Virus record (IMG/VR): IMGVR_UViG_3300035698_001936
Span: 1-21,075 of that record
Reading direction: 5' to 3' (one strand)
DNA: 21,075 nucleotides
Source: a virus
Part shown: piece by piece, positions 1-19,919 of the stretch
Layout of the letters: each line of letters begins with the position of its first letter
Numbering within the stretch: position 1 is the stretch's first letter
Program-made: the position numbers and the translations under genes
Notes under the pieces: model-generated
What the model was told of the DNA's origin: nothing
What the model saw: only the letters and a program-made list of their open reading frames with translations
The model's database searches: none

Positions 1-206
1 GCGGGCAGTTTACCTGGTGGCATAAACGCCACTCCTTCTTTCTCCTGCCAAGAGACTGAGGCCGTAGGCCTCTTAACCTCAATATCTCCCTTTTGAATGT
101 TCTCGTCGTAGACATTCATTGAGTTGTTACTGTTGTTAGTATTGTTGTTGATGTAGTTAATCATTGTTACCAAGTTTTCACCAACAGTTTTATTCCCTTT
201 TGACAT
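1..206 (-). CDS. Unknown protein, N-terminal part (cut by left edge)
   Basis: An open frame starts with ATG at 204-206 and runs off the left edge with no stop; 68 codons are visible. The start is supported by an AGGAG Shine-Dalgarno sequence at 214-218, seven bases upstream. The protein begins MSKGNKTVGENLV and continues with an Asn-rich stretch (about residues 17-28, with repeated NN and SNN). A more charged segment follows, including the motif VKRPTASVSW near residue 44. I do not recognise the family. It follows the 59-residue gene at 217-396 with a gap of ten bases, so both are probably transcribed from the sigma-70-like promoter at 404-432 rather than from the late virion promoters. Confidence 0.75.
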   Translation of the reverse strand, partial: MSKGNKTVGENLVTMINYINNNTNNSNNSMNVYDENIQKGDIEVKRPTASVSWQEKEGVAFMPPGKLP

Positions 207-216
207 TGTGTTTCTC

Positions 217-396
217 CTATTTGTGTTGTTTTGATTTGATTTGATGCTGTATGGTCACATAATCCTGTGCAGACAACCACTGAATGTGTTTGCGGTGCCT
301 CACACATACCAATTCAGCATGGTGAATTTCAGTATGATTCACTCTGCGTGCCTTAACAGGGCATTGGTTGTGTTTTTTTAGTTTTGTGAGTGCCAT
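217..396 (-). CDS. Small His/Cys-containing phage protein (59 aa)
   Basis: A 59-residue frame from ATG at 394-396 to TAG at 217-219. It is basic and His-rich: it begins MALTKLKKHNQCPVKARR and has the central motif HHAELVC followed by KHIQWLS (about residues 25-42). From memory, small phage proteins of unknown function carry a similar HHA-x-L-x-C ... I-x-W-L-S pattern, usually with a Cys-x2-Cys; here the second Cys is absent. An upstream in-frame TTG at 432 would give 71 residues, but it lies inside the -35 box of the promoter and has no Shine-Dalgarno sequence, so I reject it. The ATG has no Shine-Dalgarno sequence either, and it falls at the predicted transcription start, so the message may be leaderless. 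The stop codon overlaps the Shine-Dalgarno sequence of the next gene. Confidence 0.65.
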   Translation of the reverse strand: MALTKLKKHNQCPVKARRVNHTEIHHAELVCVRHRKHIQWLSAQDYVTIQHQIKSKQHK

Positions 397-403
397 TAAC
401 ACA

Positions 404-432
404 ATTATATAGCATCGTGGTATGGAAGTCAA
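404..432 (-). promoter_or_regulatory. Sigma-70-type promoter (TTGACT-N17-TATAAT)
   Basis: On the minus strand the -35 box TTGACT (427-432, five of six consensus bases) is separated by exactly 17 bases from a perfect -10 box TATAAT (404-409). Counting seven bases past the -10 box puts transcription start next to the ATG at 396. This is the only strong vegetative-type promoter I found. It stands between the end of the virion genes and the leftward genes at 396-1, which suggests a separately controlled, host-polymerase-driven unit. Confidence 0.8.
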
Positions 433-451
433 TAATTAAATGGGTAATTTG

Positions 452-495
452 GGGAGTTTTGATTAGACTGTATGAAAATAGAGACCAAAACTCCC
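452..495. repeat. 10-bp inverted repeat, 24-base loop
   Basis: GGGAGTTTTG at 452-461 is the exact reverse complement of CAAAACTCCC at 486-495. It lies just downstream (minus strand) of the last virion-module gene and just upstream of the sigma-70-like promoter. It could be part of a terminator or an operator. There is no T-run after the stem, so an intrinsic terminator is not clearly shown. Confidence 0.6.
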
Positions 496-497
496 AC

Positions 498-542
498 CAG
501 TACGTGGAAAGGTCAAATGGGAATAAGACCTGTGTCGTACTG
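498..542. repeat. Two-step inverted repeat (7 bp outer, 5 bp inner stem)
   Basis: CAGTACG at 498-504 pairs with CGTACTG at 536-542. Inside it, AGGTC at 510-514 pairs with GACCT at 527-531, leaving an internal bulge of five and four bases and a 12-base loop. It directly abuts the inverted repeat at 452-495. Together they fill most of the gap between the gene ending at 551 and the promoter at 432, so the gap is a structured, probably regulatory, region. Confidence 0.5.
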
Positions 543-550
543 ATATCTAT

Positions 551-838
551 TTACTCGCCAGCACTGTCAGTACACTCTGGTTTGAGTATCACAGCATATG
601 GTTCTTGGCAATGTGGAGTCCAACAACGTATTTTCCACAGAATTTTGCGAGTTTGGTAACCGTAGGTTCTGTAGTAGGAGTATTTGCCTTCAAATGGTCT
701 TTCTGACAACATGTGATTGCCACCGCATCTGCCACACTCCACGTTTTCTTGATCAAATTGTTCTGATGTAATTTTGCGTCTTTTGGTGGAGTATTTGTTG
801 GCGTAATAAGCGTTTCTGCTCTGTTGAGGTCTGCCCAT
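551..838 (-). CDS. Zinc-ribbon-like small protein (95 aa)
   Basis: The start is ATG at 836-838, overlapping the preceding stop as TAATG. A longer version from TTG at 844 is less likely. The 95-residue product has a basic N-terminus (MGRPQQSRNAYYANKY, then KRRK near residue 19). It carries CGRC (Cys35, Cys38) and CWTPHC (Cys72, Cys77), with His42 and His76 nearby. This C-x2-C ... C-x4-C spacing suggests a metal-binding ribbon; the function is unknown. The chain ends in ECTDSAGE, one of the many DSAG tetrapeptides in this window. It is the last gene of the long virion transcription unit and follows the holin-like gene. It could be a nucleic-acid-binding regulator or a minor virion component. 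Confidence 0.7.
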   Translation of the reverse strand: MGRPQQSRNAYYANKYSTKRRKITSEQFDQENVECGRCGGNHMLSERPFEGKYSYYRTYGYQTRKILWKIRCWTPHCQEPYAVILKPECTDSAGE

Positions 839-1011
839 TACCAAACTCTGATGAATATGCCAATCAGCATGGTCACAATCAAACCAGTCAATGCCAAAAT
901 ATACATTTGGTAACCTTGGATATGATGGAGATGGTTGTTCATAATCTTGTCCAGTGTGCGTTCAATTTTGTCTATGCGTTTTTCTATTGCTTTGATAGGT
1001 GTGTTTTTCAT
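838..1011 (-). CDS. Coiled-coil plus single-TM protein, holin-like (57 aa)
   Basis: Starts at ATG 1009-1011, one base after the stop of the upstream fibre-like gene. A longer frame reaching 1116 in this phase overlaps that gene and is rejected. Residues 4-27 form a charged amphipathic helix (IEKRIDKIERTLDKIM). Residues about 37-55 are a hydrophobic segment (MYILALTGLIVTMLIGIFI) ending in RVW. A coiled coil followed by one C-terminal membrane helix is the layout of XhlA-type holin-associated proteins, so a lysis role is plausible. No endolysin is visible in the window, so the assignment rests on topology alone. It overlaps the next gene by one base (TAATG). Confidence 0.7.
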   Translation of the reverse strand: MKNTPIKAIEKRIDKIERTLDKIMNNHLHHIQGYQMYILALTGLIVTMLIGIFIRVW

Positions 1012-1012
1012 A

Positions 1013-1438
1013 TTATGATATTGTGCTACCCAGTGCAACCACTTTCCAGTTGGAACCATCATACACTGCCAATGTGGTAGCGCCTGCATTACCGTTTGAA
1101 CAGTATGCCAAGTCACCCGCTTCTTTGTCTCCCCTTGCGTTGAGTTCTGTGAGTGTTTGTGGTTTTAGTTGTAGTATTTCTTCTATGTTGACCTTGCCTG
1201 TGGCAGGATCCAGTGTTAAATCTGTTGCTGATGTGGAGTTGATTTCATCTGGCAGTTGTGCCGCTATTATTTTAGATGTGCCATCCAACCCTGCCACACC
1301 GTTTGCTGTGTTTCTGCCATCAATCACGATGATCAATTCGTCAAATGCCGCCTTGATGTCTGGTCTTGCCGCCGCAGGTGAATCCGTGGCATCATTTAAA
1401 TTTGTTGTGCTTACGTTTGAACTTGTTCCCCAACCCAT
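1013..1438 (-). CDS. Short tail-fibre-like protein (141 aa)
   Basis: A GGAG Shine-Dalgarno sequence precedes ATG at 1438, and a late-type promoter octamer lies at 1463-1470. The N-terminus MGWGTSSNVSTTN, then TDSPAAARPDIK (residues 18-29), matches the N-terminal module of the proteins at 1552-2493 and 20426-20923. The middle has GLDGTSKIIAAQLP (about residues 50-63), a linker typical of phage tail fibres. The C-terminus (TTLAVYDGSNWKVVAL) is the usual short end motif of fibre or spike tips. It probably attaches to the virion through the shared N-module and displays a small tip. The exact location (fibre, tip or decoration) cannot be decided. Confidence 0.75.
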   Translation of the reverse strand: MGWGTSSNVSTTNLNDATDSPAAARPDIKAAFDELIIVIDGRNTANGVAGLDGTSKIIAAQLPDEINSTSATDLTLDPATGKVNIEEILQLKPQTLTELNARGDKEAGDLAYCSNGNAGATTLAVYDGSNWKVVALGSTIS

Positions 1439-1462
1439 AATATGGTACTCCTTTGTTGTTTT

Positions 1463-1470
1463 TATTTATA
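1463..1470 (-). promoter_or_regulatory. T4-type late promoter octamer TATAAATA
   Basis: An exact TATAAATA on the minus strand, about 25 bases upstream of ATG 1438, in the 113-base gap between two fibre-like genes. It is identical to the T4 late promoter core. The same motif or AATAAATA occurs at five other junctions in this window. Confidence 0.55.
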
Positions 1471-1551
1471 AAATTGGTTGCAGTATACAACTAATCTTAT
1501 CTCTTTGTTTTGCCCGTGTACTGACGTCTACGAGCGACTAACACACCTTTT

Positions 1552-2493
1552 TTAACTGAAGTTGGTGCTTAAACTTGCGTAATATATTCCGCCCACAAAA
1601 CTTATGGTCATGATGTCTATGGCATTGGCGGCAGTGCTTAATGTGGACGTGCCTCCTGCAAACAACATTCTGCCTGCAGAGTCTAAATCTTCTGCGAATG
1701 TTCTGTTGCCTGTTCCATCTTGTTTAATGATTAATGTTAGACTTTGTCCATTTTCTGCACTGGCAAATCCTTGGAAGTTTACATTACCAGTCAATGTGAC
1801 TTCCATTAAATTTCCATTTGTTTTGACATCAGGTGTTAAATTTGAACCATAAGGCAATTCAAATACTTGTTCCTTGTACCTCATGCCTGCGTCTATGTTG
1901 AATTGGTCTGATGTTACAGTGATTTTATCAAAATTTTCAGTAGAACCAGCACTGTCTCCATGTGAATTAAAAGTTATTGCATTTTCAGACTGGACATTGG
2001 TTGCATAGTGATCAATAACAAAATTAACTGCATCCACACTAATACCATGATTGGTAACTCCTGCTGAAGTGCCACCAACAACAATTCTTGTTTTGGCAGA
2101 CTCTAAACGTAAATCACCACTTACACCACCCAGTTTACTAATTTTAAAATCTGTGCCTCTACCAGTGTTGGTTTTTATGTTGAATGTGTCTGTGTCTAAA
2201 TCTGATGTCAGTGGATTTGTAACACCTGCCGCGGCAGTTATATTAAGAGGCGCACCTCCTGAATCTGCATTAACCAAAAGAGTGTTGCCTAAATGAGCAA
2301 TTTCTAATTGTGAATTTGCACGATTGTACACCAACAATGCATAAGGATCTCCATCTATACCAGTGGTGTCTATGAAATCAACAATGTCGTTGACTGCTTG
2401 ACTCATTGTGTTTAGTTCAGGTCTGGATTCTTTGATAGAATCTGTGTCTGCTGAAAATTTATTTGAATCTGGTTTGTTTGTTGGCCACGCCAT
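1552..2493 (-). CDS. Tail-fibre-like protein (313 aa)
   Basis: Begins MAWPTNKPDSNKF, then TDSIKESRPELN, the N-terminal module shared with 1013-1438 and 20426-20923. The body (about residues 60-215) is rich in Thr, Asn, Asp and Gly, as in beta-structured fibre shafts. The C-terminal 60 residues carry LTLIIKQDGTGNRTFA followed by STAANAIDIMTISFVGG, which closely parallels the end of the 20426-20923 protein and is a common fibre-tip module. Three DSAG/DSGG tetrapeptides are present. One (DLDSAGR, DNA 1673-1684) lies where the paralogue has a shorter loop. Start and upstream stop are separated by one base. Probable receptor-recognition or fibre component. Confidence 0.8.
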   Translation of the reverse strand: MAWPTNKPDSNKFSADTDSIKESRPELNTMSQAVNDIVDFIDTTGIDGDPYALLVYNRANSQLEIAHLGNTLLVNADSGGAPLNITAAAGVTNPLTSDLDTDTFNIKTNTGRGTDFKISKLGGVSGDLRLESAKTRIVVGGTSAGVTNHGISVDAVNFVIDHYATNVQSENAITFNSHGDSAGSTENFDKITVTSDQFNIDAGMRYKEQVFELPYGSNLTPDVKTNGNLMEVTLTGNVNFQGFASAENGQSLTLIIKQDGTGNRTFAEDLDSAGRMLFAGGTSTLSTAANAIDIMTISFVGGIYYASLSTNFS

Positions 2494-2494
2494 A

Positions 2495-3253
2495 TTAGTT
2501 TATCACAACCTCCGTTTGTCCATTTGCTGAAGAAAAGCAAATTGGAAGATATTGAATTTGTACATCCACTGTGCAGTCTATTCTACGTGCTTTGCCGTAA
2601 CTGTCTGCATCAAAAATATTTAACACAAGAGGGGTTGATGTCTTGTCAATATAGATAAGTGGTCTGACAGGATCTCCTCCTGAATCATCCAATCCTGTGA
2701 TGTGTGGTTGTATAATACAGTTGGTAATTTTGCCTGTTTCTTTTTCAAATGTTAATTGTCTAGCACCCACAGAACCACCCAGTGTGCTGGTGTCTATGTC
2801 TGACTGTGAAAGTGGCAAGGTGCTGTTGTTGAAACCCACATTGAAATCGTTTAAAAATAGTACAGGAGATCCTGCTGAATCTTCTGCTCCTGCTGAATCA
2901 CCTGTGCCTTGCGTTAAAGTAAATTTAAAAAATCTTGCATAGATGCCTGGCACGTCTGCTGTGTCAGGTGAAATTGTAGCGGTGCTTGGAGAATCAATTG
3001 CTCCTCCTGTGCTGTCAACAGTGTTGCCATACTGCACTGTTGTGATAACAGGTGCTCCAGAATTAAATGTTAACAATGGTAGATGCCAATCCAAACCGCC
3101 AGCGTCAATGATGTTAGTGGTAAATTCTAAAAGAGAACTGGGTGTGCCTCCCCAACTAGTGAGTGTGCTCCAATTGGTATAGTCTGCCCAACTTTCCACA
3201 CTGCGAGCAAATAGAGTGTTTTCAATTTCATCAAAATATCCGTTGCTTGACAT
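2495..3253 (-). CDS. Unknown tail-module protein (252 aa)
   Basis: Starts one base after the stop of the J-like gene; the ATG lies close behind the GGAGG that encodes the end of J. The N-terminus is MSSNGYFDEIENTLFARSV, followed by a Trp-rich stretch (WADYTNWSTLTSWGG). The rest is Ser/Thr/Gly-rich with alternating hydrophobic residues, suggesting beta structure. It carries two DSAG tetrapeptides close together (GTGDSAGAEDSAGS) and one DDSGG. I do not recognise a family. Its position between the tip protein and the fibre proteins suggests a tail-tip or fibre-attachment subunit. Confidence 0.8.
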   Translation of the reverse strand: MSSNGYFDEIENTLFARSVESWADYTNWSTLTSWGGTPSSLLEFTTNIIDAGGLDWHLPLLTFNSGAPVITTVQYGNTVDSTGGAIDSPSTATISPDTADVPGIYARFFKFTLTQGTGDSAGAEDSAGSPVLFLNDFNVGFNNSTLPLSQSDIDTSTLGGSVGARQLTFEKETGKITNCIIQPHITGLDDSGGDPVRPLIYIDKTSTPLVLNIFDADSYGKARRIDCTVDVQIQYLPICFSSANGQTEVVIN

Positions 3254-3254
3254 A

Positions 3255-5633
3255 TTATCCTCCTAAATTCTGTTGTCCACCAGCATCAAAACCGTATGTT
3301 TCTTGTAGATAGTTAACAAAACCTTCTAACCCATCGTCCTCAATTTTTGTGCCTTTAATGATGTATTTTTTCTTAGTAAAATTTGTTTCTGAAAAATCAC
3401 CTCCCATTGCATATTCATCTTCTGGACCAGGATTTGTTTTTATTGGTCTAATTTTTGCTACTAACCCTTTTACAAGAGGAATACGTATGAAATTGCCGCC
3501 GCTTAACCGTCTGTAATAAACAGTTCCTTGAGGAGTTCCTTGAACAGTTGATGTATTGAACACGTTGGCAAAATTTCCATGACTACCTGCAAAAAATATA
3601 TGACCACCACTACTTTCTTTGTTGCCCATAAAATATTCTAATCTCAATCCATTCACACCAGGTTCTTGTGGTAGTGCCAATGCAATTTCACCCACATTGC
3701 AACGATATCTTACACCATTTATTATTATAACACTGGTGTAGTTAGAACCTTGACGTTGTACCAAAGTCAAATATCCGTTTTCTCTAATGTCTGCACCGCT
3801 GTCTACTCTTTTGATTAAACAACTGGTTGGTATGGATAATGCGTTGTTGTGTTGATACACTTTGCCACTCCACACAAGGGGTGTGCTAGGATAGGCAACC
3901 AATTGTAAATCGTATCCATAAAATTTATCTAAACTTGGTTTTTTAATTGGTTCATACTCAGGAGGTGGTGTTGGTGCAGGTATTGGTCCTGCAGAATCAT
4001 CTGGTGTTGGGTAAGGCGGTTTAACGCCTTTGGGTGGATCACTCACAGGTCTTTGCAAAGGTCTGCCTGAATATTCATCTGGTAGATACACAGTGGGTGG
4101 TATTTCTATTTGTTCACCTGATGTGTGTGGATAATGATTTGCTGTGTGTTCCACAGCAGATATATCTATCAAACCTGCGTTGGTCAATTTCATATCTACC
4201 ACTCTAAATGTACGCAAATCAAGATCCAGTATGTCTTCTGACATTCTGATAATGTCACCTGGTTCCACATTGAATAATTCTTGTGTGCCTGTAAAACTTA
4301 ATGTTCTTTGATTACGTGATTTTAAATAAATCATTCTTGCCATTTCACGTGCTATGTAAGGATTGGTAAGGGTAGTAAATGTAAATTCACCTGACATTTC
4401 TTCATCGTCATCCACTGCTTGATCACCTGCTGTGCTGTACACCACTTGTTGACTGCTGAATTCTTTGTCAGGATCTATGTAGTTCACATACACATTGTTG
4501 TATTTGGATACTTTGGATTCTCCACCCAACGTAACTGGACCCACAATAAAAAAATTACTGACATCAAATGCAACATTGATTGTGGCAGATGTTATGTCAG
4601 TGGCATTACCGCCATCTTCTACTTTTAGTTTGTATCTGCCACTCACAAAAGGCAGTATGCCTCTGCAACCACCTACTAATTGTTTTACATTGTCTATTAA
4701 TTTTGATTCTGTGGTCAGCACTGTGTTGCAAGTCAACACAAACTCAGTGAACTGGCCGTCATCATCAAGATCAACCAATTGATTGAATTTTTCAGCGGCA
4801 ATTCTAAAACTTTCTGTGTGTATGTCTTCTTTTTTGATGCCCAATCCATAACGAGGATTCATCATGTAATCCAGCAACACACATGCTGGGTTTGTGCCTG
4901 GTCTGTTAGAATCTGTTTCCACATAAGTCTTTGATAAATCTGCATAATCGTTTGGTAGGTTTTCGCTGTCTGGAGTTACTGTGGTAAGATCAAAAACTTT
5001 TTTACCAAACACATCAAATTGAATTTGTGGTACACCGCCACCAAAAGGATTAGAATCTATTTCTGCTTGATTTGAATTTTTCCATTCAAATCTAAATGCC
5101 GCATATGCAACACCTGGTAATTTTCTTACACCATTGTTCCAACTGGGTGATCCGTTTGCCAATGTGCTTTGAACTTGCGTTTCTGTGCCGTTGAATATTT
5201 GAAATTGTACTCTGCCACTGTATCTACCTGTGCTGGATGTGTAAACTTGTGCATGGTTGTATGTGTTGCTGGTACCTGGGTGCGGCAACAGTTCGTTTTC
5301 ATCCAATTTAATTCTGTGTATGCCTCCAATCTCACCTTCACAAATAGCATACACCACATACAAAAATTGATTACTGCTTCCGTTGGTTTCCACGTGTACG
5401 ATTGTGCCACCCACACGTCTAAATCCATACACCACAGGTATTCCAACATTGGTACCTGACTTGGTAACTTTAACACCTTGTGCAAGTGATTCTGCAGATA
5501 CGTCTGGTGTTTCAAAAGAACCAAAAGGTTTTATAATAAATCCAAAAGCATCACCCACAAAAGATGTTATGCCTTTGACTGCTTTTTTAATTCCTTTTAA
5601 GATTCCTTTGATTGGTTTTTTTATGAATCCCAT
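3255..5633 (-). CDS. J: Tail tip / host-specificity protein, lambda J-like (792 aa)
   Basis: Start chosen at ATG 5631-5633, which overlaps the previous stop as TAATG; an upstream start in the same frame would extend into the GNAT gene. Residues 1-37 are amphipathic and Lys-rich (MGFIKKPIKGILKGIKKAVK). The core shows J-family landmarks: GIPVVYG (64-70), LLDYMMNPRYGLGI (254-267) and VEPGDIIRMSEDIL (456-469). A Pro-rich linker (about 508-566, containing DDSAGP) leads to a C-terminal module of roughly 220 residues that I do not recognise, probably the variable host-range part. J-type proteins form the central tip complex of long non-contractile tails and contact the receptor. Confidence 0.88.
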   Translation of the reverse strand: MGFIKKPIKGILKGIKKAVKGITSFVGDAFGFIIKPFGSFETPDVSAESLAQGVKVTKSGTNVGIPVVYGFRRVGGTIVHVETNGSSNQFLYVVYAICEGEIGGIHRIKLDENELLPHPGTSNTYNHAQVYTSSTGRYSGRVQFQIFNGTETQVQSTLANGSPSWNNGVRKLPGVAYAAFRFEWKNSNQAEIDSNPFGGGVPQIQFDVFGKKVFDLTTVTPDSENLPNDYADLSKTYVETDSNRPGTNPACVLLDYMMNPRYGLGIKKEDIHTESFRIAAEKFNQLVDLDDDGQFTEFVLTCNTVLTTESKLIDNVKQLVGGCRGILPFVSGRYKLKVEDGGNATDITSATINVAFDVSNFFIVGPVTLGGESKVSKYNNVYVNYIDPDKEFSSQQVVYSTAGDQAVDDDEEMSGEFTFTTLTNPYIAREMARMIYLKSRNQRTLSFTGTQELFNVEPGDIIRMSEDILDLDLRTFRVVDMKLTNAGLIDISAVEHTANHYPHTSGEQIEIPPTVYLPDEYSGRPLQRPVSDPPKGVKPPYPTPDDSAGPIPAPTPPPEYEPIKKPSLDKFYGYDLQLVAYPSTPLVWSGKVYQHNNALSIPTSCLIKRVDSGADIRENGYLTLVQRQGSNYTSVIIINGVRYRCNVGEIALALPQEPGVNGLRLEYFMGNKESSGGHIFFAGSHGNFANVFNTSTVQGTPQGTVYYRRLSGGNFIRIPLVKGLVAKIRPIKTNPGPEDEYAMGGDFSETNFTKKKYIIKGTKIEDDGLEGFVNYLQETYGFDAGGQQNLGG

Positions 5634-6106
5634 TACAACTCCTTCACATACATATTGCCACACCATTTCATATTTTTCATTTCAAAATATTTACTGGCAC
5701 GTTCTACATATTCTTCATCAACGTTGTAATCTTTGTCAAACAAAAACACACCGCTCATTATTAATTCAACATCTTGATCTCTTAAAAAATCTTCTATTTG
5801 GTCAAAGAATTTGTGACTGCTAATCTTGTGTCTGTAATCAGGATGTAAAAAAAACATTTCTACATTGGCCACTCTCACTCTGTTCCAAGTTAATTCTGAT
5901 AAACTGACCACACTGTAACCTACCACTCTGTCATCCTTGATGTACAATAAAATATTGCTTTGTTGTTCTATCAATCTTTGTTTGGTTAATTCTAATGCTG
6001 TTTCCACATCAAAATTTAATTTGCCAGACACATTGGCCTCTTCAGCGTGTATGCGATAAATTTCTTGCAGTTGATTGAAGTGTGAGATGTTTGCTTGTTT
6101 TAACAT
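5633..6106 (-). CDS. GNAT-family N-acetyltransferase homologue (157 aa)
   Basis: Start set at ATG 6104-6106, where it overlaps the previous stop as TAATG; an ATG at 6121 would add five residues but lacks a Shine-Dalgarno sequence. The fold is readable: N-terminal MLKQANISHFNQLQEIY, central strand NILLYIKDDRVVGYSVV (51-67), motif A region VEMFFLHPDYRHKISSHKFF (82-101) and C-terminal KYFEMKNMKWCGNMYVKEL. The usual R-x-x-G-x-G/A loop that holds the acyl-CoA pyrophosphate reads RHKISS here, so the glycines are missing and activity is uncertain. It sits between the hub-like gene and J, where lambda has genes K and I. Possible roles are acetylating a tail protein or a host target, or a non-catalytic structural role. 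Confidence 0.8.
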   Translation of the reverse strand: MLKQANISHFNQLQEIYRIHAEEANVSGKLNFDVETALELTKQRLIEQQSNILLYIKDDRVVGYSVVSLSELTWNRVRVANVEMFFLHPDYRHKISSHKFFDQIEDFLRDQDVELIMSGVFLFDKDYNVDEEYVERASKYFEMKNMKWCGNMYVKEL

Positions 6107-6696
6107 TATTTTATACCCCATTTTATTTCTGCCAATGCTTCGTGTGAAAATTCCATACTGGCATCGTTGGCATGTTCTCTTTGAAAATTGTTTTGATTGG
6201 TTCTGCGTCCATTCTTTCTGTTGAAATTCACAAACTGCGAACTTACTTGTAATTGTATGTCTGCTGATGTTTGATTGTTGGTCACACTGTAACCTGCTAT
6301 TTTGCCTTTGAACAACAAGAAAGCATTTTCACCTGCAGAATCACCAAACAACACATTGGTGCTTGGGTCAATAAATCCTCTGTATATGCTCACAGTTTGA
6401 TTTATTATTTCTGATGTGGCAAATGTTTGCACATTGGCAAGTGTTAAGGCACTGATTGCTATGTTTACAGAACTGATTTGTACAGCACTGTTCAATTGTG
6501 TTTCACTGATAGACATAAATTCACCTTGTGCAGAATATGTTTCGCCATCAAATGTTAGATCATAAGGATTGTTGGTGTATCTCAATGTGTCTGATACACC
6601 GCCTGAGTCAGGTGTGTCTATCTCCAACAACAACACACTGGTAAAAGTGTTGCCTGCAAGATAAGTGTTTAATGGATCAGAAAATCCGCGAGGCAT
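6106..6696 (-). CDS. Tail hub-like minor tail protein (196 aa)
   Basis: Begins MPRGFSDPLNTYLAGNTFTS, followed by VLLLEID and LRYTNNPYDLTFDGETYSA. This pattern (a beta strand, an 'RYT...Y' segment, then 'DG..Y.A') is typical of phage tail proteins near lambda L and the DUF2163 group, which build the baseplate hub below the distal tail ring. The C-terminal third holds a conserved-looking basic segment, FNRKNGRRTNQNNF. DSGG (TPDSGGVSD) and DSAG (FGDSAGEN) both occur in apparent loops. It is linked by TAATG overlaps to both neighbours. The role is inferred from order and weak sequence resemblance. Confidence 0.75.
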   Translation of the reverse strand: MPRGFSDPLNTYLAGNTFTSVLLLEIDTPDSGGVSDTLRYTNNPYDLTFDGETYSAQGEFMSISETQLNSAVQISSVNIAISALTLANVQTFATSEIINQTVSIYRGFIDPSTNVLFGDSAGENAFLLFKGKIAGYSVTNNQTSADIQLQVSSQFVNFNRKNGRRTNQNNFQREHANDASMEFSHEALAEIKWGIK

Positions 6697-7334
6697 TAAA
6701 TTACCTCCTCAACATCCATCCTATAATTCACAGTGCCGTCTACATTGTATTGATATTCTTGTAGATCACTGCTCATAATCACTTTGAATGGCACGTTGTC
6801 GTATGTGACTGTTTCACTATTTGATACTTGTAACACCAATGCTGGTTCAAAAGCAATGGCAAAACCTGCTGAGTCCATCACAGCATCTTCTGTTGCCATG
6901 TACACTTTGCTGTGTCCTGAAAATTTAATCACATCACCCATTTTGAGTGCTGTGGCATTGATGTTGCCTTGGTCAGTTGTAACGTTGACGCTGGTTGAAC
7001 CTTGTCCAAAGTTGCCTGACACTGTGACTGTGCCCACATTGTCAGTTGCTGTTCTAAAACTTATTTCTGGTATCTCTATGGTAAAATCGTTCACACTGGT
7101 TTTTGCTTTGGCAATAAAACCTTGTATTTGTTTAAAATCTGACACAGTAAGACTGACCAACTCCAATGTGCCTTTGAACAATGTGGTTGCCGCTGTGCTT
7201 CTTATGATTCTGCCTGATGCAGTTTTTGTGACAGCAACTTCATTTTGTTGTTTGAAGTTGACTGCTCTAAATTTTATTGGTGTAGCATTTGATAAAATGC
7301 TTGAACTTCCGTTGAATGCTCCTATGCTTGCCAT
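6696..7334 (-). CDS. Distal tail protein candidate (212 aa)
   Basis: Lies directly after the tape measure gene, with TAATG overlaps on both sides; this is where siphovirus genomes place the distal tail (lambda M/Dit) protein. The sequence is beta-rich: FRAVNFKQQNEVAVTKTASG near the N-terminus, ASGRIIRSTAATTLFKGTLEL (about 39-59), and an internal section with VTVSGNFGQGSTSVNVTT. The C-terminus (EYQYNVDGTVNYRMDVEEVI) resembles the last strand of tail-tube-like folds. One DSAG (MDSAGFAIAF) is present. The assignment relies mainly on position. Confidence 0.72.
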   Translation of the reverse strand: MASIGAFNGSSSILSNATPIKFRAVNFKQQNEVAVTKTASGRIIRSTAATTLFKGTLELVSLTVSDFKQIQGFIAKAKTSVNDFTIEIPEISFRTATDNVGTVTVSGNFGQGSTSVNVTTDQGNINATALKMGDVIKFSGHSKVYMATEDAVMDSAGFAIAFEPALVLQVSNSETVTYDNVPFKVIMSSDLQEYQYNVDGTVNYRMDVEEVI

Positions 7335-9478
7335 TATGCTGTGATCCCCTCTCTTCCTTGTCTGTTCATTGCTTCATTGATAACGCCCACAATTGTTGAT
7401 CTTCTTTCCAACAACAGTTCGTCAAAACCTGTTGCGTCCACTGTTTCAATGTTGAAGTTCACTGTGACTTGTTGGCCCATTGCACCATTTGATGTAATTT
7501 GTCCACCTGCATTAGGTGTAAACATTTCTGGTCCCTTTTCTCCAACCAAGTATTGTTGTCCTGCAGAAACTGGTCCACCTTTTTCTCTTGGACCCGTGTA
7601 TGAAGTTGATTTAATCTTAGCAATTTGTACTGCACCAGTTGCCGCAATCAATGCCGCTTGTAAATATGCACCTCTACCTAATGCAAACATCACACCTTTT
7701 GCTGTGCTGATAATTGTTTCAGATATTGCAACTGCTTTTGCTATCTTGAATGCTTTTTCGTTAATTTGTGCCAGTTCACCCAACAATTCTTTACCAAGAG
7801 CAACGTTTAAACCTTTTTTGTCTTTGCCAAATGCAACTTCAATATCTATTTCTTTTGCTTTGCCTTGTTTTATTAATTCAACAACATCACTTTGTTCTCT
7901 GTCTCTTCTATTTTTTTCTGCTCTTGCGGAATCTTCTCTTATTTTTGTGATTGATGTTTGATATTGTTGTTCACTAATTTTTTTCTTATTTCTTAATATT
8001 TCTAAATTGGCAACTTCTTTTTGCATCGCAACAACTTCAGGAGATTCAAACACATCACCGCCTACTTTTTTCATAATTGATGGCAATGCTTTTTCTGCCG
8101 CCGCAACTTTTCTTAATTCTTGTTCTTTACGTATAAGTTGACGTATTTCTTTTTCTTGTTCTGTGGTCATGTCTTTCAACACGCCGTGTTTTAATTTGTA
8201 TATTTCAGCATCTTCTAAATTGGCAATGGCATTTGCCTGAAGTGCTCTTATAGAATCATGTAATTTGTCTGTAACTTTTTTTGTAGCACTTGACACTGCT
8301 TCTTGTTGTTGTTCTAATATTTTTTGTGCCATACTTGCTTCTGCTGACACAGTTGGCACTTCACTCATTTCATGTATGAAGTTTTCAGTTGCTTTGGTAG
8401 TTTCTTTAATTTTTGGAGTTAAGATGCCAAACTTTTCACCCACTTCTTGTATTTTGTCTTTGAATATTATTATGCCAGCAGTCAACACAGTTGCCGCGCG
8501 AATGATAGGATTTGCCATAGCGGCAAGTGTCATTATCCTAATTGCTTTTGTAACATTTGCCACAGTGACACCTAAACCTGCGAATGCTATTTTTAAAGCA
8601 AAAACTTGTTTTACAAGAAAACCTAATGCTAATAATTTGAATGCGGTGGTTAATAATCCTATGTTATTTTTTACAAACATTATTGAATTACCCAATGCTT
8701 GACCAATGCTGTTTGCAAGATTGTCTGTGCCTAATACTGCTTGTGTTATTTCTCTTGTGACTTCTGACAGTGCCGCAGTCAATCCGCCTTCACCCACTTC
8801 ATCTGCCGCTATCGCAACAGCATCTTGTAAATTAGAAAACGCACCTGACAGTGTTTTAGCACTACGTTCAATACCGCCTTTAAATTCTTTTGCACCAATT
8901 TGTTCTACAAGATTTACAATGTCTATACCATTGTTTCTTATTTCTGTTGTGGTACCTCTGAATATAACTTTTAACTTGTCACCTTCAGTTTTAACCTTAA
9001 TACCAAGTTGTTTAAGCATTTCAAATTCACCAGTAGTGGCATTGAATACTGCTTTGGCAACATCGTCCAGTCTACGACCCATACCAGCGGCAATGTTTCC
9101 TATGTTCAACATGAACTGTTCAGTTGGAACAAGACCTGCGTTTCTAAATGTTATAAACGCATTGGTTACTTCGTCCAATTGGAAAGTTGTGCCTGCTGTG
9201 AATTCTTTGATTAGGTTAAATGATTTACCTGCCGCCTGTACTGAACCTTCTACAGTGACAAGTGTTGCTCTTAAATCTTCAAAGGTTCTGATGGTGTTTA
9301 TAAGTCCTCTAACTACTCCAGCAGTTCCAATGGCAATTAACGCACCTGCGGCAAGTTTTGCCAAACCTCTAGTACGTCCAAGACTTTTGTTTAGTCCTTC
9401 TACATTACCTTTTGCTTTACCTAATGCCGCCCCTGTTTTATCAACGACGACTAGTTCTAGTCTTACTTGCTCCGCCAT
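7334..9478 (-). CDS. Tape measure protein (714 aa)
   Basis: A long, mostly helical protein starting MAEQVRLELVVVDKTGAALG, with AAAGGAATG-type Shine-Dalgarno (AAGGA) eight to nine bases upstream. Hydrophobic segments lie at about 41-60, 275-300 and 316-340, as expected for a protein that reaches the host membrane during DNA delivery. Charged coiled-coil regions follow (about 385-570). The C-terminus carries GGPVSAGQQYLVGEKGPEMF, a signature of tape measure proteins. The family rule of about 0.15 nm tail length per residue predicts a tail of roughly 100 nm. The start overlaps the end of the G-T frameshift extension by 38 bases, the classic chaperone/tape-measure arrangement. Confidence 0.93.
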   Translation of the reverse strand: MAEQVRLELVVVDKTGAALGKAKGNVEGLNKSLGRTRGLAKLAAGALIAIGTAGVVRGLINTIRTFEDLRATLVTVEGSVQAAGKSFNLIKEFTAGTTFQLDEVTNAFITFRNAGLVPTEQFMLNIGNIAAGMGRRLDDVAKAVFNATTGEFEMLKQLGIKVKTEGDKLKVIFRGTTTEIRNNGIDIVNLVEQIGAKEFKGGIERSAKTLSGAFSNLQDAVAIAADEVGEGGLTAALSEVTREITQAVLGTDNLANSIGQALGNSIMFVKNNIGLLTTAFKLLALGFLVKQVFALKIAFAGLGVTVANVTKAIRIMTLAAMANPIIRAATVLTAGIIIFKDKIQEVGEKFGILTPKIKETTKATENFIHEMSEVPTVSAEASMAQKILEQQQEAVSSATKKVTDKLHDSIRALQANAIANLEDAEIYKLKHGVLKDMTTEQEKEIRQLIRKEQELRKVAAAEKALPSIMKKVGGDVFESPEVVAMQKEVANLEILRNKKKISEQQYQTSITKIREDSARAEKNRRDREQSDVVELIKQGKAKEIDIEVAFGKDKKGLNVALGKELLGELAQINEKAFKIAKAVAISETIISTAKGVMFALGRGAYLQAALIAATGAVQIAKIKSTSYTGPREKGGPVSAGQQYLVGEKGPEMFTPNAGGQITSNGAMGQQVTVNFNIETVDATGFDELLLERRSTIVGVINEAMNRQGREGITA

Positions 9479-9976
9479 GGTTCATTCCTTTGTTAGCGTT
9501 GTCATGCTGTATTTTAAAATACGAGGCCCATAACTGGATCTCCAGGACACTGAACTGCATGACTTCTTCTATTGATTTACCTAGTTCTTTTGCTATGTGC
9601 ATCAACAGAAATAGTTCTGTGTCCTCTCTTAGTTTTTTGAGACATCCTCCTGTGTATATTCAGATGTCGCATTATTTAAAGCACTAGCAACTTTGATTAA
9701 TGTAGAAGGATCTGCTTCGTTCATCATTGTTACTTTGTCAAACTTATGAAACATAGGTTTGCCATCTGGTGTTAGTGCTTTGTTAATCACTGATTCAACC
9801 AATGCTTCCACAGTTTTACCTTGTGATTGCAAATCAATAATTTTTGACTCTACAGCAAACGAGTATACTGCTTTGTAGTAGATGTCTGTTTTCCATTCTG
9901 GAACAGTGACTTTTAACAGTTCACCATTCAATTTAGACTTAAAATGTGTTTTTATATTGTCTAATACTTGTGTCAT
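9441..9976 (-). CDS. GT: Tail assembly chaperone G-T, -1 frameshift product (178 aa)
   Basis: Translation of the G frame to AAC at 9632-9634, then a -1 slip on A AAA AAC, gives 63 further residues ending at TGA 9441-9443. The extension begins LREDTELFLLMHIAKELGKS and contains VLEIQLWASYFKI; the (E/F)-x-x-x-W-x-x-Y-F motif is the hallmark of the T domain of tail chaperones. The extension would otherwise be an unexplained 150-base gap before the tape measure gene. In lambda-type phages a few percent of ribosomes shift here, and the G:G-T ratio controls tail assembly around the tape measure protein. Confidence 0.88.
9605..9651 (-). promoter_or_regulatory. Programmed -1 frameshift site (SD, A AAA AAC, hairpin)
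   Basis: In mRNA sense: AGGAGG (9646-9651), a seven-base spacer, slippery heptamer AAAAAAC (9632-9638) directly before the TAA stop of G, an 11-base spacer, then a hairpin with stem ACAGAA/TTCTGT and a CTAT loop (9605-9620). An internal Shine-Dalgarno sequence upstream and a hairpin downstream are the known stimulators of the E. coli dnaX -1 frameshift. All three elements are seen directly; frameshifting itself is inferred. Confidence 0.88.
9629..9976 (-). CDS. G: Tail assembly chaperone G (115 aa)
   Basis: The unshifted product: begins MTQVLDNIKTHFKSKLNGEL and ends EDVSKN at TAA 9629-9631. It contains KVTVPEWKTDIYYKAVYSF (about 22-40), resembling the 'VPEW...IY' motif of phage chaperones that act with the tape measure protein. 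The ATG overlaps the previous stop by four bases (ATGA). The length and the position just before the tape measure gene fit the G family. It acts in the host cytoplasm during tail assembly and is not expected in the virion. Confidence 0.85.
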   Translation of the reverse strand: MTQVLDNIKTHFKSKLNGELLKVTVPEWKTDIYYKAVYSFAVESKIIDLQSQGKTVEALVESVINKALTPDGKPMFHKFDKVTMMNEADPSTLIKVASALNNATSEYTQEDVSKN

Positions 9977-10293
9977 ATTCTTCCTTTTGTTTTAAATGAC
10001 TTAATGGTTGGCCTCACTATACCATTAGGTCGTTGTTTGCTACGCCCTCGTTCCAGCAGACCAATGTAAGGCACGCGATTGGTGATTCTGTGTTCTTTTT
10101 GAACACCGTTTCCTGATGATGGATTTCTACCCACCGTCTTTTTCCAACCTCGTCTTGCTCTGCCTTTATCAACAGGTGTGTATATTTTCACCTCTTGAAA
10201 AATTCTTTCTGCGATGCGATCTGACACTTTTCCTAGTTGCCTTTGGATCCGTGTGAAGACCGCATCAAGATTGGATATTTTACCTCCAATCAT
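9973..10293 (-). CDS. Tail completion / neck protein, HK97 gp10-like (106 aa)
   Basis: Start placed at ATG 10291-10293 (MIGGKISNLDAVFTRIQ), five bases past the stop of the tail tube gene. An ATG at 10344 would extend 51 bases into that gene with a Lys/Arg-rich leader and is less likely. The motif TPVDKGRARRGWKK, then VPYIGLLERGRSKQRPNGIVR, is characteristic of the HK97 gp10-like / minor tail protein family, which joins the neck to the tail. Strongly basic. Overlaps the G gene by four bases. Confidence 0.82.
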   Translation of the reverse strand: MIGGKISNLDAVFTRIQRQLGKVSDRIAERIFQEVKIYTPVDKGRARRGWKKTVGRNPSSGNGVQKEHRITNRVPYIGLLERGRSKQRPNGIVRPTIKSFKTKGRI

Positions 10294-10298
10294 CAGTA

Positions 10299-10700
10299 TT
10301 ATATTGTTTCTTCGTGTAGTATTCCGTTTCCTTGAAAACTGCATGATACTGTGACTAAGTCATCAAAACTTGCTGTTCTAGAAACTGAAGTAACAATTAC
10401 ATCTCCAACATACTTTACGCCTGTTGTTGCTGGAAAAAATTCTACAGAAATGTTGGCGTCGTTTGCTGGATCAAACACAGAAGCACTTGTTTGTGCTGTG
10501 TCGTACATGCACTCCATAGTGCCTGTAAATTGTGTTAAACCGCTTATATATGTTCTAGCGCCATCGCCCATTGCTGTATCTTCTACTACGTCTTTTGTGT
10601 GTTCAATTGTCCAAGATCTTACTTCTGCTACTTGAGTAGAAGCACCACCTGAATCATCGCCAAACATCACTTTACCGTTTTCACCTGTTAGTGTTGCCAT
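10299..10700 (-). CDS. Major tail tube protein (133 aa)
   Basis: Begins MATLTGENGKVMFGDDSGGA with a GGAG Shine-Dalgarno sequence about nine bases upstream. Characteristic features of small tail tube proteins are the strand VAEVRSWTIEHTKD (24-37), DTAMGDGARTYISGL (41-55), TGTMECMYD and the terminal SFQGNGIL. It polymerises into hexameric rings forming the tube around the tape measure protein. The N-terminal loop contains DDSGG just before the strand that normally follows closely in this family, suggesting a loop insertion. It overlaps the end of the upstream small gene by 20 bases. Confidence 0.87.
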   Translation of the reverse strand: MATLTGENGKVMFGDDSGGASTQVAEVRSWTIEHTKDVVEDTAMGDGARTYISGLTQFTGTMECMYDTAQTSASVFDPANDANISVEFFPATTGVKYVGDVIVTSVSRTASFDDLVTVSCSFQGNGILHEETI

Positions 10701-10959
10701 CGTTGGTCTCCTCTTTTAGATTGTTAATGTCCCATTCAATATCGCTCATGTCTTCTTCTGAGTGTATTGGTTCTGGGGTGTTGTGGTTGACTTCTGCTTG
10801 TGCTTTGATTTCAACCTTTGGCAGAAGTTTTTTCTTAGACTTGGGTTTTTTAACTGTGTCTTTTTTAGTTGTCCAACCCGCCTCTAGAAATCTGTCTAGA
10901 CGATCTGATTCTATATTTTTCTTTTTAGATCCTTTGTGTACTTTAATATATCGCGCCAT
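10681..10959 (-). CDS. Small basic/acidic protein of the neck-tail region (92 aa)
   Basis: ATG at 10959 follows the upstream stop by two bases, with AGGAG at the end of the upstream gene as Shine-Dalgarno. The N-terminal half is very basic (MARYIKVHKGSKKKN, then KKPKSKKKLLPK near 38-49); the last third is acidic (SEEDMSDIEWDINNLKEE). The segment RLDRFLEAGW (20-29) resembles a motif in small phage connector-region proteins that I cannot name further. It lies between the terminator candidate and the tube gene. Alternatives include a minor head-tail joining protein or an assembly factor. Confidence 0.75.
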   Translation of the reverse strand: MARYIKVHKGSKKKNIESDRLDRFLEAGWTTKKDTVKKPKSKKKLLPKVEIKAQAEVNHNTPEPIHSEEDMSDIEWDINNLKEETNDGNTNR

Positions 10960-10961
10960 TA

Positions 10962-11411
10962 TTATACTGCTCCTTTAGTAAATGAATATCTCACGTCCGC
11001 CGTTATTAAAAACTCTCCCAAGGGTGGCGTACGATCAATTATTTCAACTGTTCTAACACGTGTGGTTGATGCTTGGGATGCCGCAAGTTCACGTGTTCTA
11101 TCTGAATTCAACGTTTCTTCAATACGTTCAATCAATTCATTTCTTTTTTGATCCACTGTGATGATTTGTGCTGATCTTCCATCTGCTCTCACAAAACCAC
11201 GGATCGTTATTTCTATAACACCTCTTCTGCCGCCACCCATCACATGGTCTTCTCTGGTTTCATTACCAGTTGTGATTAGTAGTGCAGGAAATTGTGTAAT
11301 TGCTAATTTTTCCACGTCAAAAGGTTCACGTGTGACTAGGACAGGTCTTGGAGGAGTCATGTCCTGTAAAACTGTTTCTATGTTGTGTGCTATGTCTTCT
11401 CTGTTACTCAT
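10962..11411 (-). CDS. Tail terminator-like protein (149 aa)
   Basis: Begins MSNREDIAHNIETVLQDM. It contains FPALLITTGNETRE (about 41-54), GVIEITIRGFVRADG (64-78), a charged helix and a C-terminal ITADVRYSFTKGAV. The order of long N-terminal helix, central strands and a final 'v.Y.f.rg' strand is that of lambda U / tail terminator proteins, which cap the tail tube and join it to the head. The position after the head-tail adaptor and before the tube gene agrees. Start follows the stop of the adaptor gene by three bases. Confidence 0.72.
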   Translation of the reverse strand: MSNREDIAHNIETVLQDMTPPRPVLVTREPFDVEKLAITQFPALLITTGNETREDHVMGGGRRGVIEITIRGFVRADGRSAQIITVDQKRNELIERIEETLNSDRTRELAASQASTTRVRTVEIIDRTPPLGEFLITADVRYSFTKGAV

Positions 11412-11414
11412 CTA

Positions 11415-11867
11415 CTACCTTTTCAAACGGAGAAAATGAGTAGGTTCCTTTTCAGCATCGCTAACATCTCCTGATGAATCCATATCATATTCTACACCGT
11501 CTCTTAACACAAGATCCATTTCTCTTTCGTATTCTTTACGATAGAATTCCATCTTTCTTTCAAAGATGTCTTGATCTGCGTCAAATTTTGCTAATTTTGT
11601 ATAAACGTGAAAACCTAAACAATTGTAGCACGCCACTCTTGTGAGTTGACTTGCTGTGTACATATCTTCATCTGGTTCTTGTTGTCCTGATGATAGATAT
11701 TTTAGGTCATACAAACCTATCTGTTGTGTGGGCCACCAACGTATTCTAAGATCTCTAAACACATCGTTTTGTGCTTTTGTGATTTCTTCGTCAAAGTCAG
11801 GTATGCCGTAATTTAAGATATCAGGTTCGTAGTCTTGGATGTCTGCAATGGTTAATAATGTTGCCAT
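11415..11867 (-). CDS. Head-tail adaptor protein (150 aa)
   Basis: First gene after the capsid and after the hairpin/promoter region. It starts MATLLTIADIQDYEPDILNY and continues FDEEITKAQNDVFRDLRIRW and SQLTRVACYNCLGFHVYTKL, then a long charged helix (FERKMEFYRKEYEREMDLVL). An all-helical protein of about 150 residues right behind the major capsid gene is typical of head-tail connector rings that dock under the portal. GGAGG lies 11 bases before the ATG. It has its own late-type promoter at 11922-11929. Confidence 0.78.
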   Translation of the reverse strand: MATLLTIADIQDYEPDILNYGIPDFDEEITKAQNDVFRDLRIRWWPTQQIGLYDLKYLSSGQQEPDEDMYTASQLTRVACYNCLGFHVYTKLAKFDADQDIFERKMEFYRKEYEREMDLVLRDGVEYDMDSSGDVSDAEKEPTHFLRLKR

Positions 11868-11899
11868 TAGGGGTACTACCTCCGTAATTGTTAATAATA

Positions 11900-11916
11900 A
11901 TCAAGTTCTGCTTGAT
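11900..11916 (-). other. Leader hairpin before adaptor gene
   Basis: ATCAAG (11900-11905) pairs with CTTGAT (11911-11916) around a five-base loop. It begins about six bases downstream of the TATAAATA at 11922-11929, so it would form at the extreme 5' end of the late transcript. Confidence 0.45.
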
Positions 11917-11921
11917 GTGTT

Positions 11922-11929
11922 TATTTATA
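11922..11929 (-). promoter_or_regulatory. T4-type late promoter octamer TATAAATA
   Basis: An exact TATAAATA on the minus strand in the 139-base gap behind the capsid gene, about 55 bases upstream of the adaptor ATG. It lies just downstream of two hairpins, a sensible place to restart transcription for the tail genes. Confidence 0.6.
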
Positions 11930-11942
11930 CCGCAGTCGTAAA

Positions 11943-11969
11943 GAAAGGGAGGAACAAGTCCCCCCTTTC
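11943..11969 (-). terminator. Hairpin after major capsid gene (likely terminator)
   Basis: On the minus strand a 10-bp stem (GAAAGGGGGG with CCTCCCTTTC, one G-U pair) encloses a seven-base loop ACTTGTT and is followed by TTTACG. The stem is G/C-rich in its upper part, but the T-run is short, so termination may be partial. A terminator behind the highly expressed capsid gene is common in phages. Confidence 0.6.
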
Positions 11970-11979
11970 AAGATATATG

Positions 11980-11995
11980 ACCATACAAGTATGGT
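11980..11995. repeat. Second hairpin after capsid gene
   Basis: ACCATACAAGTATGGT is a perfect inverted repeat (6-bp stem with a CAAG loop, or 7 bp with two unpaired bases). It lies 11 bases from the larger hairpin at 11943-11969, on the capsid side. Tandem hairpins may stabilise the capsid message 3' end or aid termination. Confidence 0.5.
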
Positions 11996-12000
11996 AATAT

Positions 12001-12008
12001 TATTTATT
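12001..12008 (-). promoter_or_regulatory. Possible late promoter AATAAATA at capsid stop
   Basis: AATAAATA overlaps the capsid TAA stop at 12007-12009. It matches the one-base variant of the T4 late promoter. It lies before the two hairpins, so a promoter here would be followed at once by a likely terminator; it may instead be a tandem-stop sequence. Confidence 0.25.
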
Positions 12009-12864
12009 ATAGGTTTGCGTCACCAATGATACCAACACCATAAGTGTCAAATATCTCCTGAACGCCGTACGCCATAGAACCTACGATTTCGTCTGCTCTA
12101 GCAGAAGCGTCTCTTTGGTTCTCTACTCTTAAGTTACGTTTAACCATGTAACCTAATGCGTCGCCGTGGAATGCCGCACCAACGAATGCACCTGCTGAGT
12201 CACCAGATATAACTGTTGATTCAAAGATTTGCATTCCTGCAAGTGTTCCTACAAATCCAGTTCTCAATGCTTCATTACCTAAGTCTGATAGGTTATGAGC
12301 AATTGTTGAACCAGCGTTTGTTAACAATTTCTTGATTTGGAACGCTTGTTTAGGGTGTAACACACAGTATAACGGACCACTTGGAACTTTTGCAGTTCTT
12401 AGTGTTGCCGCCGCTTTGAAAAGATCTTCTACTGAAATCTCGTCTGCGCCTGTTCCTACAGTTTGTGAAAAACCTGAGAATAACGCCGCGATGTCTGTGT
12501 CAATTTTCTCTGCTAATGCAGATCCAATTTGTCTTCCTACTGCTGAAGCAACATCTTCTGCTGATGCTTCTTTCATAAGGTCAGTTAGAGTAATCATTAC
12601 ACCTTTTTCTGTCGCTGTAATTGTTTTTGACGTTGTCAAATCAAATGCCGCGTTAGTTAGGTCAACACCATCACCTGGTGTGCTTACCGCAACTGTTGGA
12701 TATATTGGAACCTGAGCAGTTAACCCTGGTGTTCCAGACATATCATAGTTTCTTATTAAAGGTCTCATGATTGAAGTTTCGTTCAATGTGAAAAGACCTG
12801 ATTGGACTACGTTACTAAAAAACGCTGATCCTATTCCTGTATCTACTGCGTTTGTAATCGCCAT
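12007..12864 (-). CDS. Major capsid protein (285 aa)
   Basis: AGGAG lies nine bases upstream of ATG at 12864. The sequence MAITNAVDTGIGSAFFSNVV, then VPIYPTVAVSTPGDGVDL (52-69), ITATEKGVMITLTDLMKEAS (82-101) and VGRQIGSALAEKIDTDIAAL (109-128), is typical of phage coat proteins with the HK97/P22 fold; the last segment is the long spine helix. GPLYCVLHPKQAF (163-175) and AFHGDALGYMVKRNL (231-245) belong to the A and P domains of such coats. DSAG at 222-225 lies in the loop before the last of these. It follows the scaffold gene by 18 bases. No maturation protease gene is visible. Confidence 0.9.
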   Translation of the reverse strand: MAITNAVDTGIGSAFFSNVVQSGLFTLNETSIMRPLIRNYDMSGTPGLTAQVPIYPTVAVSTPGDGVDLTNAAFDLTTSKTITATEKGVMITLTDLMKEASAEDVASAVGRQIGSALAEKIDTDIAALFSGFSQTVGTGADEISVEDLFKAAATLRTAKVPSGPLYCVLHPKQAFQIKKLLTNAGSTIAHNLSDLGNEALRTGFVGTLAGMQIFESTVISGDSAGAFVGAAFHGDALGYMVKRNLRVENQRDASARADEIVGSMAYGVQEIFDTYGVGIIGDANL

Positions 12865-12882
12865 AGTACTTCTCCTTTGTTA

Positions 12883-13587: not shown

Positions 13588-13620
13588 GTGTTTACCTCTT
13601 GTTTGAGTTGAGTGTACTCC

Positions 13621-13633
13621 CTGTCTATGACAG
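13621..13633 (-). other. Leader hairpin before scaffold gene
   Basis: CTGTC/GACAG with a three-base loop, flanked by GTAC on both sides that could extend the fold. It starts about ten bases downstream of the AATAAATA at 13643-13650, as the leader hairpin of the adaptor transcript does. Confidence 0.35.
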
Positions 13634-13642
13634 TACTGATGT

Positions 13643-13650
13643 TATTTATT
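13643..13650 (-). promoter_or_regulatory. Possible late promoter AATAAATA before scaffold
   Basis: AATAAATA on the minus strand about 55 bases upstream of the scaffold ATG. It overlaps the TAA stop of the 26-residue gene. It is well placed to drive scaffold and capsid. Confidence 0.45.
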
Positions 13651-13729
13651 ATCTTCTTTTCTTTTTGCCTCTCGTAGATGATTTCTTACCACGAGACATG
13701 CTGTTTTTCTTTTTGCCTCTTGTTGCCAT
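13649..13729 (-). CDS. Tiny basic peptide, RGKK repeats (26 aa)
   Basis: ATG at 13727-13729 follows a strong GAGGAG (13735-13740) with a five-base spacer; the stop is TAA at 13649-13651. The 26 residues include 8 Lys and 5 Arg and no acidic residue, with three RGKK units at 4-7, 13-16 and 20-23. It follows the glycosyltransferase stop by two bases, so it is part of the same transcript. I know no named family. Its make-up suggests nucleic-acid or acidic-surface binding, for example an internal head component or an assembly aid. Function is not established. Confidence 0.7.
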   Translation of the reverse strand: MATRGKKKNSMSRGKKSSTRGKKKRR

Positions 13730-13731
13730 AA

Positions 13732-15014: not shown

Positions 15015-15022
15015 GCTGGTAT

Positions 15023-18391: not shown

Positions 18392-18393
18392 TA

Positions 18394-19425: not shown

Positions 19426-19442
19426 CGTCTAACTCCAGTTGC

Positions 19443-19865: not shown

Positions 19866-19919
19866 GTTATTTTCTCCTTATAAGGTTATTATTAGTGTTT
19901 GTGTTTGTTATAACACATC

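Follow-up and report, generated by a model that had tools for sequence, protein, structure and literature searches.

A conserved predicted sigma70 promoter placed for probable leaderless expression in related phages, with unrelated small genes apparently exchanged behind it at the start codon

The window analysed here (the whole stretch of 21,075 nt from the virus record IMGVR_UViG_3300035698_001936) very probably carries a leaderless promoter for host sigma70 polymerase that is conserved among related phages as a socket (hereafter, the slot), with the gene behind it being replaced at the AUG. Sequence comparison provides the architecture of this site, its conservation, the replacement of the gene and, for one pair of phages, the position of the crossover. 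According to the mechanism that we favor, a near-consensus sigma70 promoter located after the structural genes would start transcription on the AUG or one base before it, presumably by recruiting the sigma70 holoenzyme of the host, and 70S ribosomes would then start at the 5'-terminal AUG of the leaderless mRNA without a Shine-Dalgarno (SD) sequence. The promoter would stay with the phage backbone, the gene behind it would be replaced by unrelated small genes joined at the AUG, and the small proteins encoded in the slot would presumably act on the host. Leaderless genes have precedents in phages; their use as a conserved slot with changing genes looks like a new variation on them, the novelty lying in the exchange at the AUG. 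The features of the slot in the window are collected in Table 1.

Table 1. Features in and around the slot, with positions in the window
Feature	Position	Strand	Remarks
-35 hexamer TTGACT	427..432	-	motif match; TTGACT common to all 11 lineages
-10 hexamer TATAAT	404..409	-	17-nt spacer from the -35 hexamer
TGTGTTA, 7-nt gap between -10 box and ATG	397..403	-	from sequence; gap of 7 nt in nine lineages, 6 nt in two
ATG of the 59-codon gene	396-394	-	stop codon at 219-217
Predicted leaderless gene of 59 codons; product a putative small metal-binding protein ('KHIQWLS' family)	217..396	-	H9xxC12, C31xxH34
Conserved block just before the -35 box, like CCACTTATT	433..444	-	column profile over 10 lineages
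12-bp hairpin between upstream gene and promoter	452..495	-	arms 495-484 and 463-452; z = -4.8, 120 nt before -35
Gene of a 95-residue CxxC protein, last before the promoter	551..838	-	guide to the slot in other phages through its relatives
Following gene, truncated at the end of the window	1..206	-	SD AGGAG at 218-214 overlaps the stop of the 59-codon gene

An earlier note on this DNA had pointed to a near-consensus TTGACT-N17-TATAAT before an ATG that lacks an SD sequence, and both observations hold. The promoter agrees with the sigma70 consensus (TTGACA/TATAAT) at 11 of 12 positions, and its spacer falls within the 16-18 nt range of sigma70 promoters, placing it in that class by sequence. 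It ranked first of the 65 promoter-like sites found in a scan of positions 1-20000, a total that only slightly exceeds the expected 55. The window has a single match to the strict pattern TTGACW-N16..18-TATAAT vs. a mean of 0.05 in shuffled sequences, 5 of 100 of which contained one match; a looser scan returned a second site with 11/12 matching positions, TTGACA-17-TCTAAT at 8290 (+ strand), antisense within the tape-measure gene. Transcription from sigma70 promoters begins about 7 nt after the -10 box. The predicted transcription start is thus 397 or 396, leaving the 59-codon gene a leader of 0-1 nt (1 nt for a gap of 7 if the start falls exactly 7 nt past the box), and the table of gene starts in the window gives no SD motif before its ATG.

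The gene immediately upstream, whose product had no family match in curated family searches, allowed the same position to be located in other phages. A scan with its family recovered 14 loci, one of which (L311) ends before the promoter site. In all 13 testable contigs, the best promoter within 700 nt was TTGACT-17-TATA[AC][TC] with an ATG 6 nt (L314, L322 and L323) or 7 nt (the other ten) further on, situated 109-272 nt beyond the end of the matched segment. Six of the 13 sites (L310, L312, L319, L321, L322 and L323) had been known before the scan, and L315 (the contig of L163) was chosen as a query prior to its site being seen; the remaining six (L313, L314, L316, L317, L318 and L320) were inspected only afterwards, and all six have the site. 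An additional contig found through its slot gene, L330, carries TTGACT-17-TATAAA-7-ATG behind the same upstream gene. Merging the near-copies L310, L320, L321 and L323 left 11 lineages, every one with a spacer of 17 nt, ten with TATA[AC][TC] as the -10 box and one (L330) with TATAAA.

Since TTGACT and TATA were preset in the site search, the 69% identity of the promoter as a whole is inflated, and the spacer, whose letters were not fixed by the search, provides the value to be read: mean identity over 55 pairs was 53% in the spacer alone, 63% in the 12 nt before the -35 box and 36% in the ungapped block from -70 to -14. A weight matrix built from ten lineages gave scores of 40.8-54.1 for the slot sites, as opposed to a maximum of 21.9 for the rest of the scanned loci; no other copy with a comparable matrix score was found in the fetched loci. 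One copy was found per phage record. An exact search with the TGTGTTA-gap pattern over all viral contigs gave 72 stretches, one of which is the near relative (L119). The fixed 17-nt spacer, the 6-7 nt between -10 box and ATG and the single copy per record argue that the arrangement is under selection. Further, all 11 lineages have the ATG 6 or 7 nt from the -10 box, whichever of the three gene families follows, which strongly supports the leaderless placement that the earlier note had proposed.

The genes that occupy the slot belong to three families: K (the window, L312, L313 and probably L315, a label that is a guess because only 3 codons of the gene are present), D (L314, L318, L319, L322 and L330) and R (L316 and L317). 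The D gene encodes about 100 residues with a KFGKHKGKT segment, weakly resembles exonuclease ends, and matches PF12843 above the cut-off (25.4 vs. 22) and PF20600 below it; the R gene encodes 107 residues, and a family search returned nothing above the cut-off. BLAST gave no match better than E 0.17 between the three families, and no defence-system match was obtained among six slot proteins. A natural recombinant pair indicates where the exchange takes place. The upstream proteins of L313 and L314 differ by one residue, and the DNA of the two phages is 88.9% identical over 1.6 kb in a gapped alignment (0.749 when ungapped) until 13-15 nt inside the gene, after which it is different, while the match between L313 and L312 (87.4%) begins 3 nt before the ATG. 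The end of the first match and the beginning of the second put the join at the start codon; the gap between -10 box and ATG differs by one in the L313/L314 pair (7 and 6, respectively). On the tree of the upstream protein, in which L315 was counted as K and good support is limited to 3 of 9 inner branches, gene type needs five changes, the least possible being two, and shuffled labels needed as few changes in 105 of 200 cases, so that gene type does not follow the phage tree.

This arrangement invites comparison with the morons of lambdoid phages, that is, extra genes with their own promoter and terminator that vary between related phages. The slot gene likewise varies between otherwise similar phages. 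However, a moron brings its promoter and terminator along, whereas the slot promoter is part of the backbone, and what is swapped at the AUG is the gene, as in L313 and L314, which have kept the promoter and differ in the gene. The 87% similarity between the K-type phages L312 (2943-3437) and L313 (2950-3446) extends some 210 nt beyond the end of the gene, and the exchanged unit may thus include a downstream element; in the window, unlike in these two phages, a gene with an SD sequence follows the K gene directly. Several contigs end close to the slot, either within about 700 nt past it (the window, L313, L314, L315 and L321) or shortly ahead of it (L311); breaks in assemblies at places of gene exchange would have this effect.

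Judged by its relatives, the 59-residue frame is a real gene. The near relative G001/L002 has the same promoter and gene in DNA that is 97.7% identical over 3.2 kb, a record search found a 40% relative of the protein in G045, and an alignment-based scan for the family returned 12 loci, L002 among them. K relatives have in common the KHIQWLS motif and a putative metal site (HxxC/H, CxxC/H), as well as the position of the start codon. H9, L29, C31, I38 and L41 are invariant over the 16 aligned members, and alignment positions 12 and 34 hold C or H in 16/16 rows; the presence of C or H at all four presumed ligand positions suggests a four-ligand metal site. The start codon is confirmed by relatives with a normal SD sequence before an aligned (L188, L189 and L193) or near-aligned (L192 and L196) ATG and by those that start in an ATGA overlap with an upstream frame of 127-131 codons (L194, L195 and L197), and coding from the AUG assigned to the leaderless message is thus backed by comparative evidence; the G045 gene overlaps its upstream gene by 14 nt. 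Two relatives fall in no clear start class (L190, with AAGGA upstream, and L191, without a clear start codon). In L187/G073, whose protein is 58% identical, TTGACT-17-TATAAT is followed by seven different bases and the ATG, i.e., the leaderless arrangement of the window; most family members outside the slot have an SD sequence or overlap the upstream gene and are not leaderless. G064 encodes a weak relative (tblastn E 1.1; 24% identity). Searches of Pfam, PHROGs (E up to 1), NCBIfam and PADLOC (E up to 0.1) assigned the 59-residue protein to 0 families, and no named relatives of it were found in the phage collection; with the L158 homologue as query, that collection gave two weak matches (E 0.1 and 9), one of them in phage DSL-LC06. 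The structure model is of middling confidence (pLDDT 73), and a structure search with it returned no fold match at E < 0.001.

The alternative that survives best, although we consider it unlikely, is that leaderlessness is ordinary for a host with many leaderless genes and nothing special here; it is compatible with the slot model and competes only with its importance. Leaderless genes do occur in many bacteria, with AT-rich signals before non-SD genes in several phyla (excerpts of PMC5397173), and in Deinococcus they have a -10 motif about 6-7 bp before the frame (excerpts of PMC12340547); several sites of this kind are also found in wider relatives of the window (G041, G045, G064 and DSL-LC06). 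Against it stand the other genes of the window itself. The start table has 29 usable rows, the 59-codon gene and 28 others (the row at 1018 was excluded, and the start at 5633, the 12th codon of a listed 803-residue frame, was chosen because AAGGAG precedes it). Under a lenient rule by which three matching bases are enough, 23 of the 28 have an SD-like motif, and the other five (2493, 6121, 10344, 14523 and 15014) overlap the upstream gene or sit at most 8 nt from it, in agreement with the earlier note, according to which all neighbours have SD sites or are coupled. The 59-codon gene, 154 nt from the end of the preceding gene, is the only usable start that lacks both an SD-like motif and a directly preceding gene. 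In addition, strong promoters with SD leaders are present in relatives (L014, L189 and L221), which means that both modes are used, and an ordinary leaderless host would leave the gene exchange unexplained.

The wider group of phages offers a similarly mixed picture. A search for TTGACW-N16..18-TATAAT-N4..9-ATG covered 84 distinct records (37 + 50, three shared), nine of which matched vs. none in a reversed control. Slot sites with a gap of 7 account for five of these (the window, G001, G010, G056 and G073, with G001 and G056 being near-copies), and the other four, all with a gap of 6, lie away from the slot (G041, G045, G064 and DSL-LC06); of the 75 records without a strict match many are fragments, and the pattern covered consensus -10 boxes only. 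Among 73 distinct sites with at least 11/12 matching positions, ATGs pile up at gaps of 6 (six sites) and 7 (five), with 0-4 at other gaps except gap 39 (six, mainly the second ATG of the K gene). Four Pelagibacter phages with 47-48% TerL identity have no strict site, which means that part of the wider group lacks the feature. DSL-LC06 (OR003941; TerL 60% and capsid 66% identical), described in excerpts of PMC10611076 as a metagenome-assembled phage with predicted host Pseudomonadota, resembles the slot phages in that two annotated starts (1328, at a strict match, and 18870) lie 6 nt past a strong -10 box, and differs from them in that other genes at other places are involved; in that paper's main text, the word 'promoter' is absent. 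The start at 18870 is that of an HNH endonuclease gene (18905-18870, - strand) behind a weaker TTGATT-17-TATAAT (10/12). Short genes that look like lipoprotein genes, from a reading of their leader sequences, also follow strong -10 boxes in G041 (564, - strand; 6 nt), L219 (G064; 11728, - strand; 10 nt) and G070 (3730, - strand; 9 nt). With regard to the host, a TerL search of genomes returned 58 loci, in which phage-like contigs were binned with Porticoccaceae (65%), Pseudomonadales (49%) and then more distant groups, a hint rather than a decisive result.

Leaderless messages had been called rare in phages by the earlier note, which is only partly right given lambda cI and the prophage gene paaR2 (excerpts of PMC8630535) and a transcript predicted to be leaderless in mycobacteriophage Adephagia (excerpts of PMC11373665). 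Like the slot gene, whose start is predicted, cI and paaR2 are phage or prophage genes with the start site at the AUG and no SD sequence; these are, however, regulators under regulated promoters, whereas the slot combines a near-consensus promoter with small, mutually replacing genes to which no function is assigned. Similarly, leaderless mRNAs of Deinococcus-Thermus have, like the one predicted for the slot, a -10 box some 6-7 bp ahead of the start codon, but the motif is found genome-wide in that phylum, as opposed to a single conserved site, complete with a -35 box, in each phage record. The early translation or tie to ribosome state that the earlier note raised would be speculative here; excerpts of two further sources indicate that stress control of leaderless translation is reported and partly disputed (PMC9031893) and that no leaders of 4-14 nt were found in Lactococcus cremoris (PMC10986495); PMC9004378 has 'leaderless' in its reference list only. 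No conserved leaderless slot in phages appeared in the titles or abstract openings of the open-access literature on leaderless phage genes and pelagiphage promoters.

The DNA following the slot gene bears on a second, quite improbable alternative, namely a genuine promoter whose purpose is to express a small RNA or genes further on, the 59-codon frame being incidental and its ATG unused. In the window, a gene with a good SD sequence comes directly after (the near relative has the same arrangement of SD and stop), and in D- and R-type phages the slot gene is followed by non-coding DNA that is conserved and folds, both of which would suit this alternative. However, many phages encode members of the family to which the frame belongs, sharing its start and having C or H at the four presumed ligand positions in 16/16 rows, and the distance to the ATG is kept though the gene changes.

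A conserved non-coding stretch of about 226 nt follows the D gene in L319 (3260-3486), L322 (3427-3660), L318 (3262-3488), L330 (2347-2572), L314 (3301-3523) and L325 (2347-2572). It has a predicted multibranch fold, 5 of 54 pairs of which changed on both sides, and is a candidate new phage RNA: searches with L171 and L167 gave no Rfam family at the gathering threshold and otherwise weak matches, and a model of the stretch had no match in the window or in K- or R-type records. The R gene is followed by conserved, strongly folding DNA of a sequence unlike the D-type stretch (L316, 3275-3520; L317, 3243-3490), with 83% identity between the two R-type phages from the gene end through the folding DNA. 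A separate RNA element, a group I intron scoring 87 bits, was detected in L177 (1392-1657).

Finally, about as improbable is the alternative that the slot gene is expressed mainly from read-through mRNA of the upstream genes by AU-rich or S1-assisted initiation, the distance being inherited rather than selected: the gene does lie on the same strand as the upstream genes, and the hairpin in between has no U run after it in the window, but the spacing is kept where the neighbouring DNA is down to 36% ungapped identity and in front of unrelated genes, and the hairpins of L316 and L322 are followed by TTTTT and GTTTT, respectively, and look like terminators. Hairpins of differing sequence are predicted in 10 of the 10 lineages folded, with weak folding (z above -2) in three (L312, L313 and L315), and may end or insulate the upstream transcript.

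Returning to the leaderless slot, we put forward more tentatively, at somewhat less than even chance, the reading that the promoter is kept as a plug-in site for host-acting genes (an 'AUG socket') in which no ribosome-binding site has to be rebuilt. That is, with all initiation signals residing in the 5'-terminal AUG, any frame that recombines at the AUG would be expressed at once, and strongly. If true, the slot would represent conserved leaderless expression in phages that otherwise use SD sequences, as well as a simple route for the exchange of accessory genes without rebuilding translation signals. As a single promoter that accepts any of three gene families, and for which nature has supplied a recombinant pair, it would also offer a cheap and concrete test system, and TTGACT-17-TATAAT with an ATG 6-7 nt on would serve as a pointer to the host-acting genes located behind it in related phages.
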